From contig QBMK01000001.1 in the NCBI GenBank assembly GCA_003249035.1, positions 62,001-126,000 on the forward strand: a stretch of 64,000 nucleotides of DNA, written 5' to 3'. Origin of the DNA: Pseudanabaena sp. Lineage in GTDB: Bacteria; Cyanobacteriota; Cyanobacteriia; Pseudanabaenales; Pseudanabaenaceae. The notes beneath the pieces were generated by a model. It saw only the letters and a program-made list of their open reading frames with translations. It did no database searches and was not told where the DNA came from. Shown here in pieces: positions 10,399 to 21,155 of the stretch (its first letter is position 1; every line of letters begins with the position of its first letter). The position numbers and the translations under genes are program-made.

Positions 10399-10433
10399 TT
10401 AGGATGCTTTTTTGAATGCATTATAGCGGCTTG
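10399..10433 (+). repeat. integron boundary direct repeat, copy A
   Basis: A 35-base sequence starting TTAGGATGC and ending with TATAGCGGCTTG. It recurs with 2 changes at 18867-18901 and with 4 changes at 20308-20342, both times immediately after an attC crossover. This copy lies beyond the 3' end of intI and marks the far edge of the integron. Confidence 0.85.
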
Positions 10434-10490
10434 TCCAAAAATCCAAATAAAAAGACTGAGAATATTGCGATCGCGTGATTGTTGAAATTG

Positions 10491-11462
10491 TTAGCGATCG
10501 AGTGGACTAATTACGCCTTTACCGCCACGATTGAGAACATGAGTATAAATCATGGTTGTCTTGACATCTTTATGTCCCAATAACTCTTGAACAGTAGGGA
10601 TATCATAGCCATTTTGTAATAGATGTGTGGCGAAACTATGACGAAAGGTATGACAGCCAACTCTTTTTTCGATCTTGGCTGACCCTACAGCTTGTTTTAA
10701 TGCCTTTTGGATACCAGTTTCATGAATATGATAGCGACACATCAATTCACTAAGGGGATCTTTAGCGATCTTGCTAGAGGGAAATACATATTGCCAAATC
10801 CATTCTTTTGCTGCATTGAGATATTTTTTGCCCAATGCAAAGGGTAAATGAGCTTCACCATAACCTCTAGTCAAATCTTGTTGATGAAGACGTTTAACAA
10901 TCTGTAAATGTTCTTGAAGTTGCTCCACCACATTGCGAGGCAACATCGTGACGCGGCTTTCCATGCCCTTGCTATCACGAACAATTATTTGCTGTTGAGC
11001 AAAGTCCAGATCTTTCACTCGCAGTTGTAAAGCTTCATTTAATCGTAATCCCGAACCATACAGTAACTTGGCAATAATCTGATAAATACCTGTAAGATTA
11101 TTTAAGATTTCTAAAGTTTCTGTAACAGTCAAAACAGTAGGTAAGTTACGAGGACGCTTTGCCCTCACTGCATCAAGGTTAAGTCCTAGCTCTAGCTCCA
11201 ATACTTCTCGATACAAGAACAAAATCGCACTCAAAGCCTGATTTTGTGTTGATGCCGCCACATTTTCATTGACTGTCAAATGGGTCAAAAAGTCATTGAC
11301 TTCATCGCTGCCCATCTCGCTAGGATGGCGATTGTTATGAAACAAAATAAACCGTCTGATCCACTGCACATAGGTTTCTTCGGTGCGGTAAGAGTAGTGC
11401 TTAACCCTTATGCAATCTCTCACTCTATCTAACAATTTCCGAGATGGTGGCTCAGTTTGCAT
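10491..11462 (-). CDS. intI: integron integrase (IntI)
   Basis: A tyrosine recombinase that recombines folded attC sites with attI. The frame continues upstream to a TTG at 11480, but the ATG at 11462 ([19 protein letters not shown]) is the usual IntI start. Catalytic motifs are visible: [10 protein letters not shown] (Arg I), [13 protein letters not shown] (His-x-x-Arg), [17 protein letters not shown] (His and the nucleophilic Tyr). Between them is the extra block [21 protein letters not shown], which is diagnostic of integron integrases against XerC/D and phage integrases. It points away from three plus-strand cassettes, the standard integron layout. The length and reading frame are intact, so it may be active. 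Confidence 0.95.
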
Positions 11463-11524
11463 AATGAAATTATGAAGCAACTAGCCTAAATAATACCTGA
11501 TATCGTCGGGCTAACACACCATTT

Positions 11525-11651
11525 AGGTGATTAGCCAGAAATTTTCTGCATAACATCCCAATATAGGGTGATTAGCCAGAAATTTGACTTTCAGCCTATA
11601 TCCCCTATAGTCAAATTAGACAGAAATTTTCCATCTAATACATAGTTAGGC
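11525..11651 (+). other. attI: candidate attI site with three direct repeats
   Basis: Between intI and the first cassette gene, the motif ATTAGCCAGAAATTT occurs at 11530 and 11571 and, with one change, at 11615, at spacings of 41 and 44 bases. Strong direct repeats of this sort are where IntI binds in known attI sites. They are followed by the crossover-type core GTTAGGC at 11645-11651, which defines the start of cassette 1. Confidence 0.75.
11584..11611 (+). promoter_or_regulatory. candidate cassette promoter Pc
   Basis: TTGACT at 11584-11589 and TATAGT at 11606-11611 are separated by 16 bases and point into the cassette array. It sits within the attI region, where integron Pc promoters are often found. 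It is the best sigma-70-like pair between intI and the first cassette gene. Confidence 0.6.
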
Positions 11652-11867: not shown

Positions 11868-13361
11868 ATGACTGCAGCTACTCCGAAATTGCGCTTTTGG
11901 ATCGATATGGCTCTGGAATGTGTGCGCCGTGACCATACAGCGACGCTCAGCCCTGGTGACCAAACTGGACCGTTCCGAACTGCACGCGCTTTAGGTATGG
12001 CGTTAGCGGCTCTCAACGACGCCAATGCCTACGCCTCAGGTCGTTCGACCTTACTGGGTTTGCCAGCCACTACAGGTCTTGTACCAACCCCTACAAATCC
12101 TGTGGATTCAGATATTGCGGGTGCCGCCGCGTGCGCACAAGTTCTCAGATTGCGATATCCAAACCAAGCAAACCTGTTGGAACCAGCCTGGATCCATTGG
12201 CTTGAATACTTTGGATTAGGGGCAGTCGGGAGTGCTAGTGAAATGGCAGGGCGTGCTTTTGGAACTGCAGTTCACCTTTTTGGAAGTGCTGATGTGGCCA
12301 ATGCAGCCGCTGACCAATATACTCCTACTGGTGCTGCATACAACCACATTGCGCCACCGATTCAGCCAACACAAGGTTATGCGGGGGCGAGATGGGGGAG
12401 TTCAACTCCCTTGCTGGCGACGAGGGTCACAGGCTTTCCACCACCTCCAGGGCGAGTTTCGGCGGCAGTCGTAAATCCCACACAACATTACGCTGATGAT
12501 TTTGCCAAGGTCGCGATAAAAGGTGATATCAACCGCCCGATTGGTCAGCCTGGTGTTCGGACCCTTCCAGAAGAAGTTATCGGTATTGCGTGGGGATATG
12601 ATGGTCCACAAGAACTCGGAACCCCACCTAGGTTATATTTGCAGGTAGTGCTGACAGTCCTTGACGCGATTGAGGCTCGAATGACGGGTCAGTTGACCCC
12701 TGTTGATGAGTTGGAAATTATTGCTGGTGTCGGCATCGCTATGGCAGATGCGGGAATAGATGCATGGTTCTACAAATATGCTCCAACACATATGATGTGG
12801 CGTCCGGCTGTAGGCATTCGCAAGGCATTAGTGGGGAATGGCGTCGCAGATCCTAACTGGCTACCGCTTGGTCGGCCTGACACAAACGGATCGCAGACTG
12901 GTCAGACCCCGGATTTTCCAGCTTACCCGTCAGGACATGCAACCTTCGGTGCAGCGGCATTTCAGTTGTTGCGGCTCTTCTTGACAGAGAAAGGTGTCGC
13001 AACCTTTGATACCAATGGGGTTGATGATGTGAGTTTTGATTTTGTATCCGATGAATTTGACGGTCGCAATAAAGATCCGAGGACAATGCAGCCACGCGAT
13101 CACATAACGCTTGCTCATACTAGCCTATGGCAGGCGATTATCGACAATTCGGTCAGTCGAGTGTATCTAGGCGTTCACTGGCAATTTGATGGTGTTACGG
13201 TGCTTAATGCAGCGGGCACAGACGATACGTTCGGCGTCCCTAGCTCACCTAGCGTCTTGGGAAAAACTGGCGGTGTTTGGCTGGGTGCACAGATTGCCAA
13301 TCAAATTGCGCTGAAGCTTGGTGTCACGTCAGCAACCATCAACGCTTCGAAGATCTTGTAA
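11868..13361 (+). CDS. vanadium-dependent haloperoxidase / PAP2-superfamily protein (cassette 1)
   Basis: A 497-residue protein, with GGAG at 11856-11859 giving a good ribosome site. It carries the vanadate-binding pattern of the family: a Lys/Arg block in WFYKYAPTHMMWRPAVGIRKA (about residues 302-322), the PSGH motif in FPAYPSGHATFGAAAFQ (about 350), and SRVYLGVHWQFDG (about 432), where Arg and His would contact vanadate. The length (about 500) fits bacterial haloperoxidases better than plain PAP2 phosphatases. No signal peptide is evident. Members oxidise halides with hydrogen peroxide; whether this one is a chloro-, bromo- or iodoperoxidase, or a phosphatase, cannot be read from sequence. 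As a cassette gene it could be expressed from Pc. Confidence 0.88.
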   Translation: MTAATPKLRFWIDMALECVRRDHTATLSPGDQTGPFRTARALGMALAALNDANAYASGRSTLLGLPATTGLVPTPTNPVDSDIAGAAACAQVLRLRYPNQANLLEPAWIHWLEYFGLGAVGSASEMAGRAFGTAVHLFGSADVANAAADQYTPTGAAYNHIAPPIQPTQGYAGARWGSSTPLLATRVTGFPPPPGRVSAAVVNPTQHYADDFAKVAIKGDINRPIGQPGVRTLPEEVIGIAWGYDGPQELGTPPRLYLQVVLTVLDAIEARMTGQLTPVDELEIIAGVGIAMADAGIDAWFYKYAPTHMMWRPAVGIRKALVGNGVADPNWLPLGRPDTNGSQTGQTPDFPAYPSGHATFGAAAFQLLRLFLTEKGVATFDTNGVDDVSFDFVSDEFDGRNKDPRTMQPRDHITLAHTSLWQAIIDNSVSRVYLGVHWQFDGVTVLNAAGTDDTFGVPSSPSVLGKTGGVWLGAQIANQIALKLGVTSATINASKIL

Positions 13362-13433: not shown

Positions 13434-13527
13434 CCCTAACGACTTGCGCTTGCACACGGAACGGCGGCATCGCTATTAGTTGTGTAGCAAACTCTATCGC
13501 CGTCCGGTGAAGCGCAAGCCGTTAGGC
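13434..13527 (+). other. attC: attC recombination site 1
   Basis: The site begins CCTAAC and ends GTTAGGC. Folded, CTTGCGCTT pairs with AAGCGCAAG and the stem continues to ACGGCG/CGCCGT. The left arm has one extra G directly after CTTGCGCTT with no partner on the right, matching the extrahelical base that sets strand choice in attC sites. It ends the haloperoxidase cassette. Confidence 0.9.
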
Positions 13528-13606
13528 AGCCTAGATTTTTACATAAACCGAATGCAATTCTACTCTTCTCTAGTTTGGGAAGTTGAAAATTGAAGGAAAA
13601 GAAAAC

Positions 13607-16600
13607 ATGGAAACTCTTTTTAGATTTGTATTAACTCGTCCAGCTATCGCACAAGATCAAGAGACTCCAAGCATACGGCTAGCCCAAGGCTCTCAGTTTC
13701 AAGCTGCCTTGGGTCAAGCACAAAATAGTGATAATCTCAGAGAATCCCTAAAGTCTGTGGCTCGTCAATTTACTGAAGATTCTAATTTTGTGGGAGATCC
13801 CAAGGTACTCCCAATTTACGAAGCACTCAAAAATCTATCTGCTACGCTCGATGAATTAGAACAGCAAGAATGTGTGACGCATGATGATGTATCTAACGCA
13901 ATCGCGAATACGTTTGATGCAAATCCAAATGACTTAGTAGAAGAAGGAACTCTGAATGCTCCCATTGCATTCCTAAAAGATAGCCTCATTGCGATCAAGC
14001 TTCTTCCAGAAGAGCATCAACGACCCATTGAGGATCTGACTCGTCAACTACGCGATCTAGAATTGATTCTGAAGGTGGCGGCTACAAAAGATTTTCCATA
14101 CGATGGAGCTGTTTTGCGTCGCTATCGTCGTCGATCTTTGATGTTGCCAAGTGAGACCGATTTGCGTTCGAGTTTATCAACCTCGAAACGCCAAGAAGAA
14201 CTAGAACAACAACGGAAAGAAGCCGAAGCAAGGAAACGAGCCAAAGCAGAGCGGAAGCTTGCTCGATTTAAGCAACTTAATACTGCGTTCGAAGAATTAA
14301 TCAACCTGGGTGCTGAACATCTGCAAAGTACACAGCAAGAGGAAGATGATGGATTCTTAGTTCCTGAAGCACAACGTTCTACAGAAGTCTTTGTCCAGGA
14401 ACTGATACGGTATCAGCAGGGTGCTCAGAATGCTCAGGAGCAGGGTGAGGGGATTAATATTCGCTCTCTATCAAATTCCGAAGCGGGCGAGCCATCTATC
14501 GCCTCTGTATTCCCTCAATCGCTGCTTCTGCAAACGGGAAGCTCAAGCTTCAAACCATCTGAGTTTGGTGAGGTCAGCTTCCGGCTGAAGTCTACGGCTA
14601 CTCGATCTCTATCGAGCGATACAGTAGAGCTTCTCGATGCACGCCAGGTCAACATTGCTGAGCGTCCATTAGATCAAATTGTTCAACAGTTGCAATCTGA
14701 AACGATGGCTTTGAGTAAGGAGCTGGATTCACTATTGGGCAGACCCGTTCAGCGAACCTTCAAACGGATGGGTAATACCATGGTGGTGATCTCCACACCC
14801 ATGCCTACCGTGTGGAACAGCATGGTAATTGGCAACGATCTAACATTCCCTCCCTATGCATTTTCTGTAGATGATCGTGTGCCCCGTTCCCGTGGAAGCG
14901 TTGCACCCGCAGGCGTTGCCGACCTTTTGGTGATTAAGCAACAACTCGTGCGCTACGAGGGAACGGATGTGGCTCACATCGAGAGTGTCCTCAAAGGTGA
15001 ACACAAAGAACGTGAGCACATACGGCGGAGAGAGACTGAGGAATTGACGTTCCGTGAAACTGAGATTACAACCTCTGAGGAACGAGAACTGGAATCTACG
15101 AATCGCTTCGAGATGAGTCGTGAAACTGGCGAAACTATCAAGGAAGATGCATCGCTGAAGGCGGGTTTAACCATATCGGGGAAATATGGTCCAACAGTTG
15201 AGTTCTCAGCCAGTGCTGAAGGTTCTCTGTCGCGTAGCAAAGAGGAAGCAATGAAATCGGCTGCTAATTTTTCTCAAGACGTGACTCAACGAAGCGCCAA
15301 CAAGATCACAGAACGCGTGCTCGAACGGTCTTCTTTGCGGGTGACCAATGAGGTGACTGAGAAAAATAATCATACGCTCGATAATGTGGGTGGTGCAGGG
15401 AACATCTCAGGCGTCTATCAGTGGGTGAACAAAGTATACCAGGCGCAGATGTTTAACTATGGGCTGCGGGTAATGTATGACTTTATGCTGCCTGAGCCAG
15501 GAGCCTTCCTGATTGCTGCATTGCAAAGTACCCATACGAGTGCCATCGCCATTGAAAAGCCCACACCCTTTACGTTACGCCCAGACCAAATCACGGAGAT
15601 GAACTATCACAATTGGGTGCAGCAATACGGGGCTACAGATGTGCAACCTCCGCCTGACCTTTACAAAACCAAGTCAATGAACTTCAAGCTTGGACCTGCT
15701 GATTCAAATACTAGTCTCAGTCATTCAGCAGAAACTCAAGTCGATGAAGGTTACAAAGCTGTGCATATTTTTGTGCGTGTTGAAGTGACTATTTGGGATC
15801 CGAATCATGTCGTAGACGTAGCTCTGGGTGGTTTTGGTCACCGTTTCTTCGCAAGTAGACCGGGTACATGGAGTCAACCCATCGCAGCTCAGGACTATAC
15901 TTCTATTCCGTTTGCACTGGTTGCATGGAAAGTGTCAAGTTTAGCGGGGACAGTTGTAATCAAATGCCAACGTACCGATCGCGCAATGATGAAATGGCGA
16001 TTGGATACTCATGCCAAGCTTACCCAAGCATATAAAGCTCGACTCTCTGAATATGAAGAGAAACTTGCTAGTCTAGAGCTTCAAGCAGGGGTCGCCATTC
16101 GTGGAAGGAATCCCGCGTTGAACATAGAAGTTATGAAGGACGAACTAAAAAAGAACTGCATTAGCATCCTCACCGAGCAGCATTTCGATCTATTTGATGC
16201 TATCTCCTCAGGTTCTAACGGGTTGCCCCAGATCAATCTCTTTGAGAATGCTGCGGAAGGACCATACGTACGCTTCTTCGAGCAGGCATTTGAATGGGAG
16301 CAAATGACCTGGGTGACCTACCCCTATTTTTGGGGACGGAAGAATCAGTGGGAGGAACGAATTGCTTATGAGGATGTCGATCCCGTCTTTAATCAATTCC
16401 TGAAAGCAGGATATTGTCGGGTTGTCGTACCTGCCCGATTGGGTTTTGAGGGCGCGATCGACCATTTTATGAGCTACGGCGAGATATGGGAAGGTGGACC
16501 GCTACCACCTATTTCTAGTCCTATATATCTTCCAATTGCCGATGAAATTGCTGAACGATTGGAGAGACCAGGTGATGAGATTCCGCAGGACGATCCTTGG

Positions 16601-16696
16601 CCGGTACGGATACCGACAACTTTGGTTTATTTGCGTGCCGATGACAAACTACCAAAATGGGAGCAAGATGCAAATGGTGACTGGATTGAAGCCTAA
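13607..16696 (+). CDS. large uncharacterised cassette protein (cassette 2, first gene)
   Basis: I do not recognise this family. The frame opens at a TTG at 13583, but the ATG at 13607 has AAGGAAAAG in ribosome-site position, giving 1,029 residues. There is no obvious signal peptide or membrane helix. Visible parts are: a helical N-terminus to about 190; a highly charged coiled coil at about 190-230 (EELEQQRKEAEARKRAKAE); a mixed region to about 480; a long Glu/Arg/Thr/Ser-rich segment at about 485-600 with alternating polar residues; then the conserved-looking block YQWVNKVYQAQMFNYGLRVMY; and a globular Trp-rich C-terminus (MTWVTYPYFWGRKNQWEER). It ends 17 bases before a nuclease-like toxin gene and is probably co-translated with it. 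A role as carrier, delivery or pore component for that toxin is inference. Confidence 0.7.
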   Translation: METLFRFVLTRPAIAQDQETPSIRLAQGSQFQAALGQAQNSDNLRESLKSVARQFTEDSNFVGDPKVLPIYEALKNLSATLDELEQQECVTHDDVSNAIANTFDANPNDLVEEGTLNAPIAFLKDSLIAIKLLPEEHQRPIEDLTRQLRDLELILKVAATKDFPYDGAVLRRYRRRSLMLPSETDLRSSLSTSKRQEELEQQRKEAEARKRAKAERKLARFKQLNTAFEELINLGAEHLQSTQQEEDDGFLVPEAQRSTEVFVQELIRYQQGAQNAQEQGEGINIRSLSNSEAGEPSIASVFPQSLLLQTGSSSFKPSEFGEVSFRLKSTATRSLSSDTVELLDARQVNIAERPLDQIVQQLQSETMALSKELDSLLGRPVQRTFKRMGNTMVVISTPMPTVWNSMVIGNDLTFPPYAFSVDDRVPRSRGSVAPAGVADLLVIKQQLVRYEGTDVAHIESVLKGEHKEREHIRRRETEELTFRETEITTSEERELESTNRFEMSRETGETIKEDASLKAGLTISGKYGPTVEFSASAEGSLSRSKEEAMKSAANFSQDVTQRSANKITERVLERSSLRVTNEVTEKNNHTLDNVGGAGNISGVYQWVNKVYQAQMFNYGLRVMYDFMLPEPGAFLIAALQSTHTSAIAIEKPTPFTLRPDQITEMNYHNWVQQYGATDVQPPPDLYKTKSMNFKLGPADSNTSLSHSAETQVDEGYKAVHIFVRVEVTIWDPNHVVDVALGGFGHRFFASRPGTWSQPIAAQDYTSIPFALVAWKVSSLAGTVVIKCQRTDRAMMKWRLDTHAKLTQAYKARLSEYEEKLASLELQAGVAIRGRNPALNIEVMKDELKKNCISILTEQHFDLFDAISSGSNGLPQINLFENAAEGPYVRFFEQAFEWEQMTWVTYPYFWGRKNQWEERIAYEDVDPVFNQFLKAGYCRVVVPARLGFEGAIDHFMSYGEIWEGGPLPPISSPIYLPIADEIAERLERPGDEIPQDDPWPVRIPTTLVYLRADDKLPKWEQDANGDWIEA

Positions 16697-16713: not shown

Positions 16714-18588
16714 ATGAGCAGAAATCTCCGCCCTTATCAAGATGCGGTGCGCGATGCGGAAGCCGAACTACGAATGAGGCTTGCCTCTGGTCGTATGTCG
16801 GCAAGCGTTGTTGCGATTTCCCGTCGAACCTGGGAAATCATGGCAGCCCAACTGAAATCGAGTCCCGATTCCGTCTTAGCGTACGATCGCTTTCCATCTA
16901 CTACAACAAGTTTTAGTGGACCTCAACGGTGGCGACTCGATATTCTCAAGCAAGCTACAAATGAACTCTTCCCTCATCTGGCGAGTCAGGCAGCTTCAGA
17001 TACTTACGTTCAAAAACAAACAGAGTACATTGAGCTAGGACTCCAGATAATCCGCTCGCCCGATATGCGCTATCGGTCAGTAGTCGATCGGAAAAATGGA
17101 CAAAGCTACCTATACAGAGAAAATCCTTTGGTTCTTCGCATCATGCAGGTGATTGCTACTGAGTTGGTAGACTGGTTTAATAAGTATCCAGTTGATCGTG
17201 AGTTTTACCGTCGCGGCTGGTATCTCACTTGGAGTGCGAGGGCAGGGTTTGCACTCTTTTTAGAAGAACGTCCTGATATAGTTGTACTGCTGAGGCTGGC
17301 TCAGACTCTGCCATTGGATACAGAAATCAGTGACGTGCCGATCGATCGGCCTACGGTTATCGAAGCTATCGAACTGGCGATCGGGTTGATCCCAATTGTC
17401 GGTAATGTAGTTGCTGCATATGAAGCCTATGCAGGGGTTGACCTGTTTGGCTACCGTCTCACTGACTTAGAGCGTGGCATTCTGGGTGCGAGCGTGCTAC
17501 TTCCTTTGGCAGGTCGAGTTGTGAAAACAGGTCGGGTCATTTACAGCGAGGCTCGATTAGTTTCTATGTATGGACGTGATGCTGCAAAATGGTCGCAAAC
17601 GATGATCCGCGCTGGAGGTCAAGCAACTGCCAGCCGTGCTGCGCTACGGTCGATCGAAGAAGCAGAACTTTTGGTTCGCTCTCAGCGGTCTATTGAGCGA
17701 ACCTTAGCTCAGAGGGTTGCTAGCGATCTTCCTACCGTTGTGAAGGGATCGGCACCCATTTCCTCAACAGTCGATCGAGCAGTTACCGATCTGTTCCGAC
17801 AGCTATCCTCGCAACACAAAATCCTGAGTAGCCTTGACGAGTTTGCCATGCAACGCATTCTTGAAAAGGGCCCAAATGTCAATCATCTCAAAGGACAGTT
17901 GCTTGAAGAATTGTTAGAATCAAGCGTTGTACCCTGGTTACGTGATCGAGCAGGGGCATTCGCATTAGGCGTTCAGACCGGGGGAAAGCAACTGGAGTTC
18001 ATCCCTGGTCATCTCATCCGAGATGCTAGTGGCAGACAGATAACTGACGGCATTCTTGCGTTTCGGAACAATGGCGTACTTGAAATTGCCGCTGTATTTG
18101 AGGCAAAAGCAGGTCGGCAAGCGGCTCGCGAACTGAGCTTGGCAAAAGGGAGTATTTCATCTCTTACGGAGGCAGAACGCGCTGAATTACGGGCATATGC
18201 ACGAGATGTTTTGAGGGAACAACAAGCAGCAGCTCGCGAAGTAGGTAAACCATTAAATAAGACACTAGATGAGGTAGAACGCGAAATTGCACTATCAGAA
18301 AAAGGAGGGCAAATTCAGCGCGATATAGAACGTCTCTCGGAAAATGCCGATGGTACTTTGGCGAGAATCAGAATTGGAGCTACTACACTACCTGTGCGGT
18401 TTTCCCCAACACGAGCCAAGTTTTTTGGTGTTCTGCCCAGGGATGTAAATCGCTCCATTATTGAGAATGAATTGCGGGAAGCGAAATTTAACTTTGAGAT
18501 TATAGGTGTAGACATCAGCCAGCGAAATCTTAAAGACATTGCCGATGGAATGTTGCCACTTGCTACAACGATAGCAAATGCACCATAA
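16714..18588 (+). CDS. polymorphic-toxin-like protein with PD-(D/E)xK nuclease-type C-terminus (cassette 2, second gene)
   Basis: A 624-residue protein with GGGAGG at 16698-16703 as ribosome site. Residues about 1-200 are helical and polar. At about 220-272 lies a small hydrophobic segment, LIPIVGNVVAAYEAYAGVDLF followed by LTDLERGI, which resembles the pre-toxin (PT-TG) linker seen just before toxin domains in polymorphic toxins; only this resemblance supports it. The C-terminal region from about 386 reads LKGQLLEELLE, then QITDGILAFRNNG and VFEAKAG, matching the E / D / ExK arrangement of PD-(D/E)xK nucleases. A charged helical tail follows. No candidate immunity gene is seen between its stop and the attC. 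No signal peptide is present, so any export would need another route. Confidence 0.7.
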   Translation: MSRNLRPYQDAVRDAEAELRMRLASGRMSASVVAISRRTWEIMAAQLKSSPDSVLAYDRFPSTTTSFSGPQRWRLDILKQATNELFPHLASQAASDTYVQKQTEYIELGLQIIRSPDMRYRSVVDRKNGQSYLYRENPLVLRIMQVIATELVDWFNKYPVDREFYRRGWYLTWSARAGFALFLEERPDIVVLLRLAQTLPLDTEISDVPIDRPTVIEAIELAIGLIPIVGNVVAAYEAYAGVDLFGYRLTDLERGILGASVLLPLAGRVVKTGRVIYSEARLVSMYGRDAAKWSQTMIRAGGQATASRAALRSIEEAELLVRSQRSIERTLAQRVASDLPTVVKGSAPISSTVDRAVTDLFRQLSSQHKILSSLDEFAMQRILEKGPNVNHLKGQLLEELLESSVVPWLRDRAGAFALGVQTGGKQLEFIPGHLIRDASGRQITDGILAFRNNGVLEIAAVFEAKAGRQAARELSLAKGSISSLTEAERAELRAYARDVLREQQAAAREVGKPLNKTLDEVEREIALSEKGGQIQRDIERLSENADGTLARIRIGATTLPVRFSPTRAKFFGVLPRDVNRSIIENELREAKFNFEIIGVDISQRNLKDIADGMLPLATTIANAP

Positions 18589-18710: not shown

Positions 18711-18785
18711 ACACTGTAATAGACCCATTTGCTTAAATTGAAAAAGCAAAACAGAAAGCCAGATATGCATAGATTTTAGGGTTTG

Positions 18786-18872
18786 CCTAACAACGCCCAT
18801 GCACGCCGACCGCCAAGCAGTAATCTGTGAGTAGCAAGGGCTATCTGCGGCGGGTGATGGGCAAAGTTAGGT
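18786..18872 (+). other. attC: attC recombination site 2
   Basis: The site begins CCTAAC and ends GTTAGGT. In the folded strand GCCCAT pairs with ATGGGC and CAC with GTG, with a single unpaired G between them on the left arm, exactly where attC1 has its extra G. It closes the 5.3-kb toxin cassette. Confidence 0.92.
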
Positions 18873-18901
18873 TGCTTTTTTGAATGCACTATAGCGGCTT
18901 G
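18867..18901 (+). repeat. integron boundary direct repeat, copy B
   Basis: It starts at the attC2 crossover and differs from copy A at 2 of 35 positions. It is followed by a degenerate copy of the cysE terminator and a cysE fragment, as copy C is followed by the intact ones. Confidence 0.85.
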
Positions 18902-18937
18902 TTAATCAAAAAAAGATCACGCTGTGAGCCTTTTTTA

Positions 18938-19146
18938 TTAAATACCACCGCCTTCTGAAAAACCTTCATATTCCTCAGACTCAAAACTATTCGCGCGATC
19001 GCAGGGAGTAAGATGTCGAGGGCGGACATTCTTGAGCAGCTCTGAGTCAATAATGTAGTTATTAATGGGATGTAAGGTATGTGCTTCAGCATTTCTTTCC
19101 AACTGCTCAACACGACCAATCAGCGATCGGATGACATCGCCTTCAG
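18938..19146 (-). pseudogene. cysE: truncated duplicate of the cysE 3' end
   Basis: This segment matches the last roughly 70 codons of the intact cysE at 20382-21155, including the downstream stop and a decayed copy of its terminator, with scattered substitutions throughout. The frame is still open at the C-terminus ([12 protein letters not shown] and stop) but homology ends abruptly at 19146, so the catalytic hexapeptide domain is missing. It lies inside cassette 3, between attC2 and the BrnT/BrnA genes. Confidence 0.88.
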
Positions 19147-19691: not shown

Positions 19692-19964
19692 ATGGAAGTT
19701 GAATGGGATCCAAACAAAGCAGCTATCAATCTGCAAAAGCACGGTGTGCGCTTTTCTGATGCAGAGTCAGTTTTGTTTGATCCGAATGCGCTTTCCTTTG
19801 AAGATACAACGGCTCAAGGAGAACAACGGTTTATTGTGATTGGAATGGATCATCTCTGGCGCTTGCTAGTTGTGGTCTATACGGATCGAGGAAATCGTGT
19901 TCGCCTGATTTCAGCCCGTTCAGCGACCCGTTCTGAGAGGCAGAAGTATGAAAGCGGAATATGA
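19692..19964 (+). CDS. brnT: BrnT-family ribonuclease toxin
   Basis: A 90-residue type II toxin of the BrnT family, an RNase that blocks translation when free. Characteristic blocks are present: VEWDPNKAAINLQKHGVRFSDA at the N-terminus, FEDTTAQGEQRFIVIG in the middle, and the C-terminal LISARSATRSERQKYE. The stop overlaps the antitoxin start by 17 bases, the normal coupled order for BrnT/BrnA. A toxin-antitoxin pair in an integron cassette would tend to stabilise the array. Confidence 0.92.
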   Translation: MEVEWDPNKAAINLQKHGVRFSDAESVLFDPNALSFEDTTAQGEQRFIVIGMDHLWRLLVVVYTDRGNRVRLISARSATRSERQKYESGI

Positions 19965-20199
19965 TTTTAGTCAAGCTAAGAGGGGTGCTGTTATTCCCCA
20001 AACAGGCAAAACTCGCATCACAATTTATATTGATGATGATGTGTTAGAAAATTTTCGAGAACGAAGCGATTCTGCTGGCAAAGGCTATCAAACTATGATG
20101 AATGAGGCTTTGCGGCAGTATCTAGAAAAAGTTAAGCAGCCCCTAGATGAAGACACACTACGCAGAGTTATTCAAGAGGAACTTCGCGCAGTGAGGTAA
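19948..20199 (+). CDS. brnA: BrnA-family antitoxin
   Basis: An 83-residue antitoxin that would bind BrnT and repress its own operon. After a flexible N-terminus, TRITIYIDDDVLENFRERSDSAGKGYQTMMNEALRQYLE is the ribbon-helix-helix DNA-binding fold of BrnA. It overlaps the toxin gene by 17 bases and ends 28 bases before attC3. Confidence 0.9.
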   Translation: MKAEYDFSQAKRGAVIPQTGKTRITIYIDDDVLENFRERSDSAGKGYQTMMNEALRQYLEKVKQPLDEDTLRRVIQEELRAVR

Positions 20200-20227: not shown

Positions 20228-20313
20228 TCTAGCCGGGGCTTGCAGCGGATTGCCTCAACACTCTGGCGATAACTCGAAAACCCTGACCACCGCTGAAGCC
20301 CATGCCGTTAGGT
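20228..20313 (+). other. attC: attC recombination site 3
   Basis: The right end is GTTAGGT. On the left, TCTAGC pairs with it only if two wobble pairs are accepted. The inner stem is clear: GGGCTT and CAGCGG pair with CCGCTG and AAGCCC, with one unpaired G between the two left halves as in attC1 and attC2. It is the last attC of the array. Confidence 0.85.
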
Positions 20314-20342
20314 TGCCTTTTTGATTGCATTATAGCGGCTAG
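20308..20342 (+). repeat. integron boundary direct repeat, copy C
   Basis: It starts at the attC3 crossover and differs from copy A at 4 of 35 positions. It leads into the terminator and 3' end of intact cysE, and marks the right edge of the integron. Confidence 0.85.
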
Positions 20343-20350
20343 ATCATCAC

Positions 20351-20380
20351 AAAAAAAGGCTCGCATCGCGAGCCTTTTTT
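20351..20380. terminator. cysE terminator
   Basis: A-tract, GGCTCGC stem, ATC loop, GCGAGCC stem and T-tract immediately after the cysE stop codon. Its symmetric A/T tracts also allow it to stop read-through from the cassette array. Confidence 0.85.
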
Positions 20381-20381
20381 A

Positions 20382-21155
20382 TTAAATACCACCACCTTCA
20401 GAAAATCCTTCATATTCTTCAGGTTCAAGACGATCGACGCGATCGCAGGGAGTGAGATGACGGGGACGTACATTCTTGAGCAGTTCTGAATCAATAATGT
20501 AGTTGTTAATGGGATGCAAAGAATGTGCTTCAGCATTCCTTTCCAATTGCTCAACACGACCAATCAGCGATCGGATGACATCGCCTTCAGGATCGGGAAC
20601 TTGAAAATGATCGAGGGCAGAAACCTTTACGCCATGTCGATGAACGATCCGTCCAGGAATACCAACAACGGTGCAATCGGGAGGAACACATTTCAAAACT
20701 ACCGAGCCAGCACCAATCCGCGAATTGCTTCCAACTTCAATATTGCCTAAGACCTTTGCGCCAGCACCAATGACCACGTTATCTCCGAGGGTCGGATGAC
20801 GCTTACCTGATTGTTTACCAGTACCACCAAGGGTAACTCCTTGATAAATCAAGACATATTCACCAACGATCGCGGTTTCGCCAATTACCACGCCCATACC
20901 ATGATCGATGAATGCTCCCTTACCAATTCTTGCGCCTGGGTGTATCTCGATACCTGTAAGAAATCTCGCCATTTGCGAGATCAGCCGAGGGATAACGGGC
21001 AGCTTGAGTGAATTTAACCAATGGGCAAAGCGATATAGCCAAATGGCGTGGAGTCCCGGATAGCATAACAGCACTTCTAGCCAGTTACGCGCAGCAGGGT
21101 CGCGCTCAAAAATGATTGCGAAGTCAGCTCGCAGTGTTTTTATAATATTTTTCAA
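20382..21155 (-). CDS. cysE: serine O-acetyltransferase
   Basis: A 257-residue enzyme making O-acetylserine from serine and acetyl-CoA, the first step to cysteine. The N-terminal helical part ends near LIYRFAHWL-type sequence ([14 protein letters not shown]); the left-handed beta-helix follows with catalytic [13 protein letters not shown] and hexapeptide repeats, then [13 protein letters not shown] and [24 protein letters not shown]. The C-terminal tail after about residue 185 is the part duplicated in cassette 3. It transcribes toward the integron. Confidence 0.95.

Follow-up and report, generated by a model that had tools for sequence, protein, structure and literature searches.

The attachment site of the chromosomal integron in the window, a 64-kb stretch of a 4.55-Mb cyanobacterial genome, is best read from its sequence as a new attI variant, in which a palindromic array of putative integrase sites has a predicted cassette promoter built into it. 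An 11-bp half-site with the sequence of the L box is repeated upstream of the crossover in alternating orientation, forming 23-bp palindromes with a period of about 41 bp, or four helical turns. We consider it likely that this attI of a chromosomal cyanobacterial integron constitutes a tandem platform of integrase half-sites, set helically in register with the crossover and with the cassette promoter (Pc) inside it.

Anatomy of the window attI

The site, which the initial annotation had proposed to be an attI region, indeed lies between a gene for an integron integrase of family TIGR02249 on one side and a cassette ended by an attC on the other (Table 1), the latter detected in a stem scan with a threshold of 18 that gave 0 matches in shuffled sequence. 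The nearest relatives of this integrase are from Pseudanabaena, its nearest solved structure is Vibrio IntI4 (2A3V, E 9e-90), and the motifs GLRLNE, HTFRHS, GHKD and MIYTH, which carry the tyrosine-recombinase catalytic residues, are intact; read from a TTG start, the open reading frame extends to 11480. A promoter for intI is tentatively assigned from hexamers that are largely kept in the alignment of the window clade.

Three GATTAGnCAGAAATTT repeats had been reported at 11530, 11571 and 11615 ahead of a GTTAGGC core at 11645; all three are found at these positions, and the core corresponds to the R box (11645-11651). The first two copies are 100% identical over GGTGATTAGCCAGAAATTT (11526-11544 and 11567-11585), the third reads TCAAATTAGACAGAAATTT (11611-11629), and the three 15-mers are the sole 0-mismatch matches to ATTAGnCAGAAATTT in the 64 kb, with one additional match in the remainder of the genome. 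Their description as regularly spaced repeats holds for the start-to-start steps of 41 and 44 bp, but not for their nature, as they are one half of a palindromic array: each is the left arm of an imperfect inverted repeat that the initial annotation had missed (units A, B and C in Table 1), with the 23-bp pattern TTAGnCAGAAA-n-TTTCnGnCTAA. The presence of inverted arms at matching phases rules out a reading as simple direct repeats. The right arm of unit C (11628-11638) is itself the L box of the crossover site, where the core CTAA-TACATA-GTTAGGC places an inverted L box upstream of an R box that fits GTTRRRY at the cassette junction.

Unit B departs from this pattern in having a centre of 6 bp (TTTGAC) in place of 1 bp, which, offset by a 2-bp-shorter linker, makes the second step 44 rather than 41 bp and also creates the -35 box TTGACT; the resulting arm-to-arm start offset of 17 instead of 12 is found in 10/10 window-clade loci. 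The putative promoter TTGACT-16-TATAGT, noticed earlier amid the repeats, is present as described (TTGACT at 11584-11589, TATAGT at 11606-11611, 16-bp spacer), with hexamers that are sigma-70-like and directed into the cassettes and a score matched by 0/20 shuffles. Upstream of unit A, the lone arm CGTCGGGCTAA of a decayed unit has an equivalent at -180 in loci L009 and L095. A second palindrome within the linkers (CCC...GGG) was also considered, and was rejected as a separate site because its composition is conserved but its halves do not co-vary.

Table 1. Features of the integron locus, in window positions, and further attI-like arrays of the source genome (G000), in contig positions.
Feature	Position	Strand	Basis or remark
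intI, integron integrase, 323 aa from ATG	10491-11462	-	TIGR02249, 454 bits (cut-off 265)
Candidate intI promoter: -35 GTGTTA (11517-11512), 16 bp, -10 TATTAT (11495-11490)	11490-11517	-	sequence reading
Degenerate lone right arm CGTCGGGCTAA of decayed upstream unit	11504-11514	-	sequence
Palindrome unit A: TTAGCCAGAAA-T-TTTCTGCATAA	11531-11553		sequence
18-bp linker CATCCCAATATAGGGTGA, CCC-W-rich-GGG pattern	11554-11571		16-18 bp linkers dominant across loci
Palindrome unit B, widened centre: TTAGCCAGAAA-TTTGAC-TTTCAGCCTAT	11572-11599		sequence
Predicted Pc: TTGACT, 16 bp, TATAGT; predicted start near 11618, inside unit C	11584-11611	+	hexamers, conservation
Palindrome unit C: TTAGACAGAAA-T-TTTCCATCTAA	11616-11638		sequence
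Crossover region: 6-bp spacer TACATA and R box GTTAGGC	11639-11651	+	cassette joined after G
Cassette 1 ORF, 497 aa, PAP2 / vanadium-haloperoxidase-like	11868-13361	+	PF01569 E 7.5e-9, PF17897 E 5e-4
attC of cassette 1 (CCCTAAC...GTTAGGC)	13434-13527	+	stem scan score 19
attC of cassette 2 (GCCTAAC...GTTAGGT)	18785-18872	+	stem scan
L150, attI-like array	C42:8889-9049		
L151, attI-like array	C38:22419-22534		TTGACA-16-TATAGT kept, 105-aa ORF behind
L152, attI-like array	C22:423327-423463		

Array and promoter in related integrons

Related integrons, in which the initial annotation had allowed that the repeats might be lacking, carry them in register. In a set of 66 attI regions adjoining related integrases of Cyanobacteria and Chloroflexota, the own L-box sequence of the locus occurs upstream in 270 copies against 49 expected from shuffles, counts that are taken over loci related by descent and hence not independent, and for which the crossover position was curated by eye in that part of the loci where the automatic choice was ambiguous. 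These copies alternate in orientation and occupy fixed phases, with forward (left) arms at -29, -69/-73, -109/-113 and -149/-153 and reverse (right) arms at -57, -98/-101 and -139/-141 from GTT. A motif-free test returned 147 inverted repeats, where dinucleotide shuffles gave 44 and a matched downstream control 37.5. The most frequent unit-to-unit distances are 40 and 41 bp, and the number of units per locus ranges from 1 to about 10. In an even draw of 386 cyanobacterial genomes, 23 of which have intI, eight loci new to the set contain their own L box 40 times against 6.0 expected, at unchanged phases.

The spacing rules extend to the crossover itself. The L-R spacer is 6 bp in 52/66 loci, identical to that of attI1 (L140), and relatives carry different cassettes after the same core. 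The linkers between facing arms measure 17 bp in 39 cases, 18 in 15 and 16 in 9, and thus exceed by one helical turn the distance at the core, which is 6 bp to GTT and 7 bp to TTA. Facing arms 16-18 bp apart would therefore share the rotational setting of the crossover pair, at a spacing that should be incompatible with strand exchange.

The distribution of the array has limits. In six loci taken to be picocyanobacterial from their small genomes and GC-rich flanks, with integrases about 53-55% identical, no array is present in the stretch that was read upstream of intI, and the arrays of several Chloroflexota loci are weak; judged from these loci, not every IntI requires the array. No arrays were seen in the upstream sequences read for viral integrases (L119-L128). 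The proteobacterial part of the comparison is limited to attI1, attI3, a Diaphorobacter locus and a decayed Alteromonas locus. On an Alteromonas macleodii plasmid with a decayed intI (L138), the region upstream of intI has recurrent 20-bp palindromes, for example TTACTGAGAAGTCTCAGTAA and TTAATAAGAGTTCTTAGTAA, a hint that related arrays exist in Gammaproteobacteria.

The proposal of an outward promoter is supported by conservation, with Pc hexamers in 10/10 close Pseudanabaena loci and in 34/43 attI arrays of the genus, a set whose members were nearly all selected by unit C and the core, irrespective of the promoter. Pc takes the form TTGACW-16-TATAGT/TATATT at -61 in 9/10 window-clade loci; at L010 it has a 17-bp spacer and stands at -75, a 14-bp L-box duplication having shifted it. 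The count of 34/43 over the genus, which includes arrays without intI, refers to the TTGAC element: it is present in 18/18 arrays that have intI or a fragment of it beside or near them, as against 16/25 that have neither. Elsewhere in Cyanobacteria the location of Pc is not fixed (TTGACA-16-TATAAT at -34 in L023), and in several Chloroflexota loci TTGACA-17-TATAAT lies between the start of intI and the array.

Candidate readers of the arms

Between clades, the sequence of the arms follows that of the cognate L box, and these data point to the integrase as their reader. The own L box outperforms unrelated L boxes, meaning those that differ at five or more of 11 bases, in 58/66 loci, and for two L-box classes, A and B (TTTCnGTCTAA-like and TTGCA-like), the result is reciprocal, with 3.88 hits for A in A, 0.62 for B in A, 0.67 for A in B and 3.08 for B in B. 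IntI1 is known to bind L, R, DR1 and DR2 of attI1 (PMC12901181), and the direct repeats of that site favour attI1 x attC recombination (PMC8191803); by analogy, we infer that the window integrase binds the arms.

It seems improbable that the arms are instead operators of a host transcription factor controlling both Pc and the intI promoter, with their likeness to the L box incidental or secondary. Such a factor would account for palindromes that flank both promoters, for a period of four helical turns, which is typical of cooperative repressors, and for the persistence of arrays with Pc at attI copies without intI; however, it would leave unexplained why the arms change between clades in step with the L box, an integrase element, and why the design is common to Cyanobacteria and Chloroflexota, beside IntI. 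As for LexA, the window contains no box within 1 mismatch of RGTACNNNDGTWCB, and the arms do not resemble the LexA consensus of cyanobacteria.

Arm pairing bears on a second alternative, to which we give little credence, namely that the inverted repeats serve as hairpins in single-stranded DNA or leader RNA, through attC-like structure recognition or mRNA stabilisation. Every unit can fold, folded single strands are already used by integrons in the form of attC, and G-T mismatches between arms are not depleted. Arm complementarity lies far above that of between-locus shuffles (z 12.6), but within a locus the two arms of a unit match each other no better than they match arms of other units (z 1.0 overall and 0.2 for regular units, in a test whose power is modest because arms inside one locus vary little). 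Hairpins would need unit-specific pairing, so that pairing at the shuffled level favours protein half-sites; moreover, the Pc of the window clade lies downstream of unit A, leaving that unit untranscribed from Pc. A third alternative, that slippage or faulty integrase activity at attI generated the array without any function, leaving L, R and Pc as the elements that matter, is barely credible. The variable unit number, identical tandem copies in some loci (L043) and the truncation or decay of upstream units at several orphan copies speak for it, but phase, period and alternating orientation are maintained across divergent loci, and the units of one locus differ in sequence yet keep their arm positions.

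The preferred reading of the array as an integrase platform would operate as follows. Cognate IntI would bind not only L and R but also the arms. By occupying the array cooperatively, integrase would be loaded and held on double-stranded attI, and the filled array would steer an arriving folded attC to the one pair whose 6-bp spacer is productive. Pc, with its -35 box in the centre of unit B and its predicted start in unit C, would transcribe the captured cassettes; as that start falls within unit C, integrase bound to the array should block it, and occlusion by a filled array would make cassette expression and capture mutually exclusive states. We regard as speculative, and on balance unlikely, a broader scheme where a multi-protomer integrase complex on the phased array switches between capture, with Pc silent, and expression, where orphan attI-Pc copies are served in trans by one integrase, and where an invertible 6-bp centre (TTTGAC to GTCAAA, 3/43 copies) acts as an on/off promoter.

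Phage tyrosine integrases provide a further point of reference, as their attP sites have accessory integrase-binding sites that flank the core and are read by a separate N-terminal arm-binding domain. The window attI differs from attP in that its repeats carry the core L-box sequence, and a Pfam search found no extra domain of the N-terminal arm-binding type in the window IntI.

Known attI systems, orphan copies and locus surroundings

Like the window attI, attI1 lies between intI and the cassettes, has an L box (CCCTAA) and an R box (GTTA...) separated by a 6-bp spacer, and possesses extra IntI1-binding repeats upstream, of which DR1 (GTTAC) starts at -32, near the -29 position of the last left arm in the window. 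The arrangement nonetheless departs from class 1 attI, as the initial annotation had held: the two direct repeats of attI1 stand about 20 bp from each other, whereas the window has three palindromic units at 41 and 44 bp and its relatives up to about ten, and Pc lies within intI in class 1 integrons rather than inside the array. No inverted repeat or palindromic array was found in the attI1 copy (L140), and attI1 may keep a reduced form of the array, a lead that comes from one sequence. In attI3 of class 3 integrons, which occupies the same position and has the R box GTTAGAC, a palindrome array was not found in the copy compared (L139). The attIA of Vibrio cholerae likewise belongs to a chromosomal integron with a cassette promoter near attI and, unlike the window attI, is reported to carry no direct repeats (PMC8191803).

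Most attI sites are described as lacking direct repeats, and the gain of such repeats has been proposed to be an adaptation that came with the mobilisation of integrons (PMC8191803). Knowledge of accessory integrase sites in attI has hitherto come essentially from attI1; the occurrence of a phase-locked palindromic array across dozens of chromosomal integrons, in both Cyanobacteria and Chloroflexota, speaks for such sites being old and elaborate. We found no paper on palindromic attI arrays or attI repeats in cyanobacteria, in a search that was thin on subscription journals. Prediction of attI is hard at present because attI sites are poorly conserved; a half-site consensus combined with a spacing rule could make both attI sites and integrase specificity predictable from sequence.

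Within Pseudanabaena, attI arrays occur across 22/26 genomes (loci including L172-L211), and of the 43 arrays 8 adjoin a complete intI and 9 a fragment of intI, 1 has a fragment 1.5 kb away and 25 have none; several array-bearing genomes (e.g. G012, G008, G022-G025) have no intI match above the family cut-off. Most of these arrays are followed by an open reading frame, an attC being seldom detected by the stem scan. The source genome itself holds three more attI-like palindrome arrays with no intI adjoining (Table 1). Three orphan sites in different genomes (L175 in G025, L177 in G008 and L191 in G015) share a common upstream gene and differ in their first open reading frames and unit numbers, as if cassettes had been exchanged at a conserved locus that now lacks its intI. 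In three arrays (L150, L192 and L209) the centre of the Pc palindrome reads GTCAAA or CTCAAG, inverted relative to TTTGAC or CTTGAC, and the -35 box is gone, a pattern for which an inversion between the arms is possible.

LexA-consensus boxes within 1 mismatch occur in the first ~130 nt upstream of intI at 9/66 loci (L036, L041, L043, L044, L058, L069, L080, L082 and L137) against 2.5 expected, which suggests that some intI genes of cyanobacteria are under SOS control.

Further observations concern the cassettes and flanks of the window integron. Cassette 2 is unusually large, encoding a 1037-aa protein without a known family (13583-16696) and a protein of 624 aa in which a pre-toxin (PT-TG) domain is present (16714-18588). 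A 33-36 bp sequence, TTAGGATGCTTTTTTGAATGCATTATAGCGGCTTGT, is present at 10399-10434, 18867-18902 and 20308-20340 with 91-94% identity, that is, at the left flank of the integron and after attC junctions at its right, and resembles a direct repeat enclosing the integron. A 284-bp duplication, 86% identical between 18866-19146 and 20307-20590, spans the 3' end of a serine acetyltransferase gene (20382-21155) together with the terminator of that gene; its first copy lies inside the last cassette, which also holds BrnT/BrnA, a toxin-antitoxin pair (19692-20199), and an attC with a mutated R'' box (about 20228-20315).
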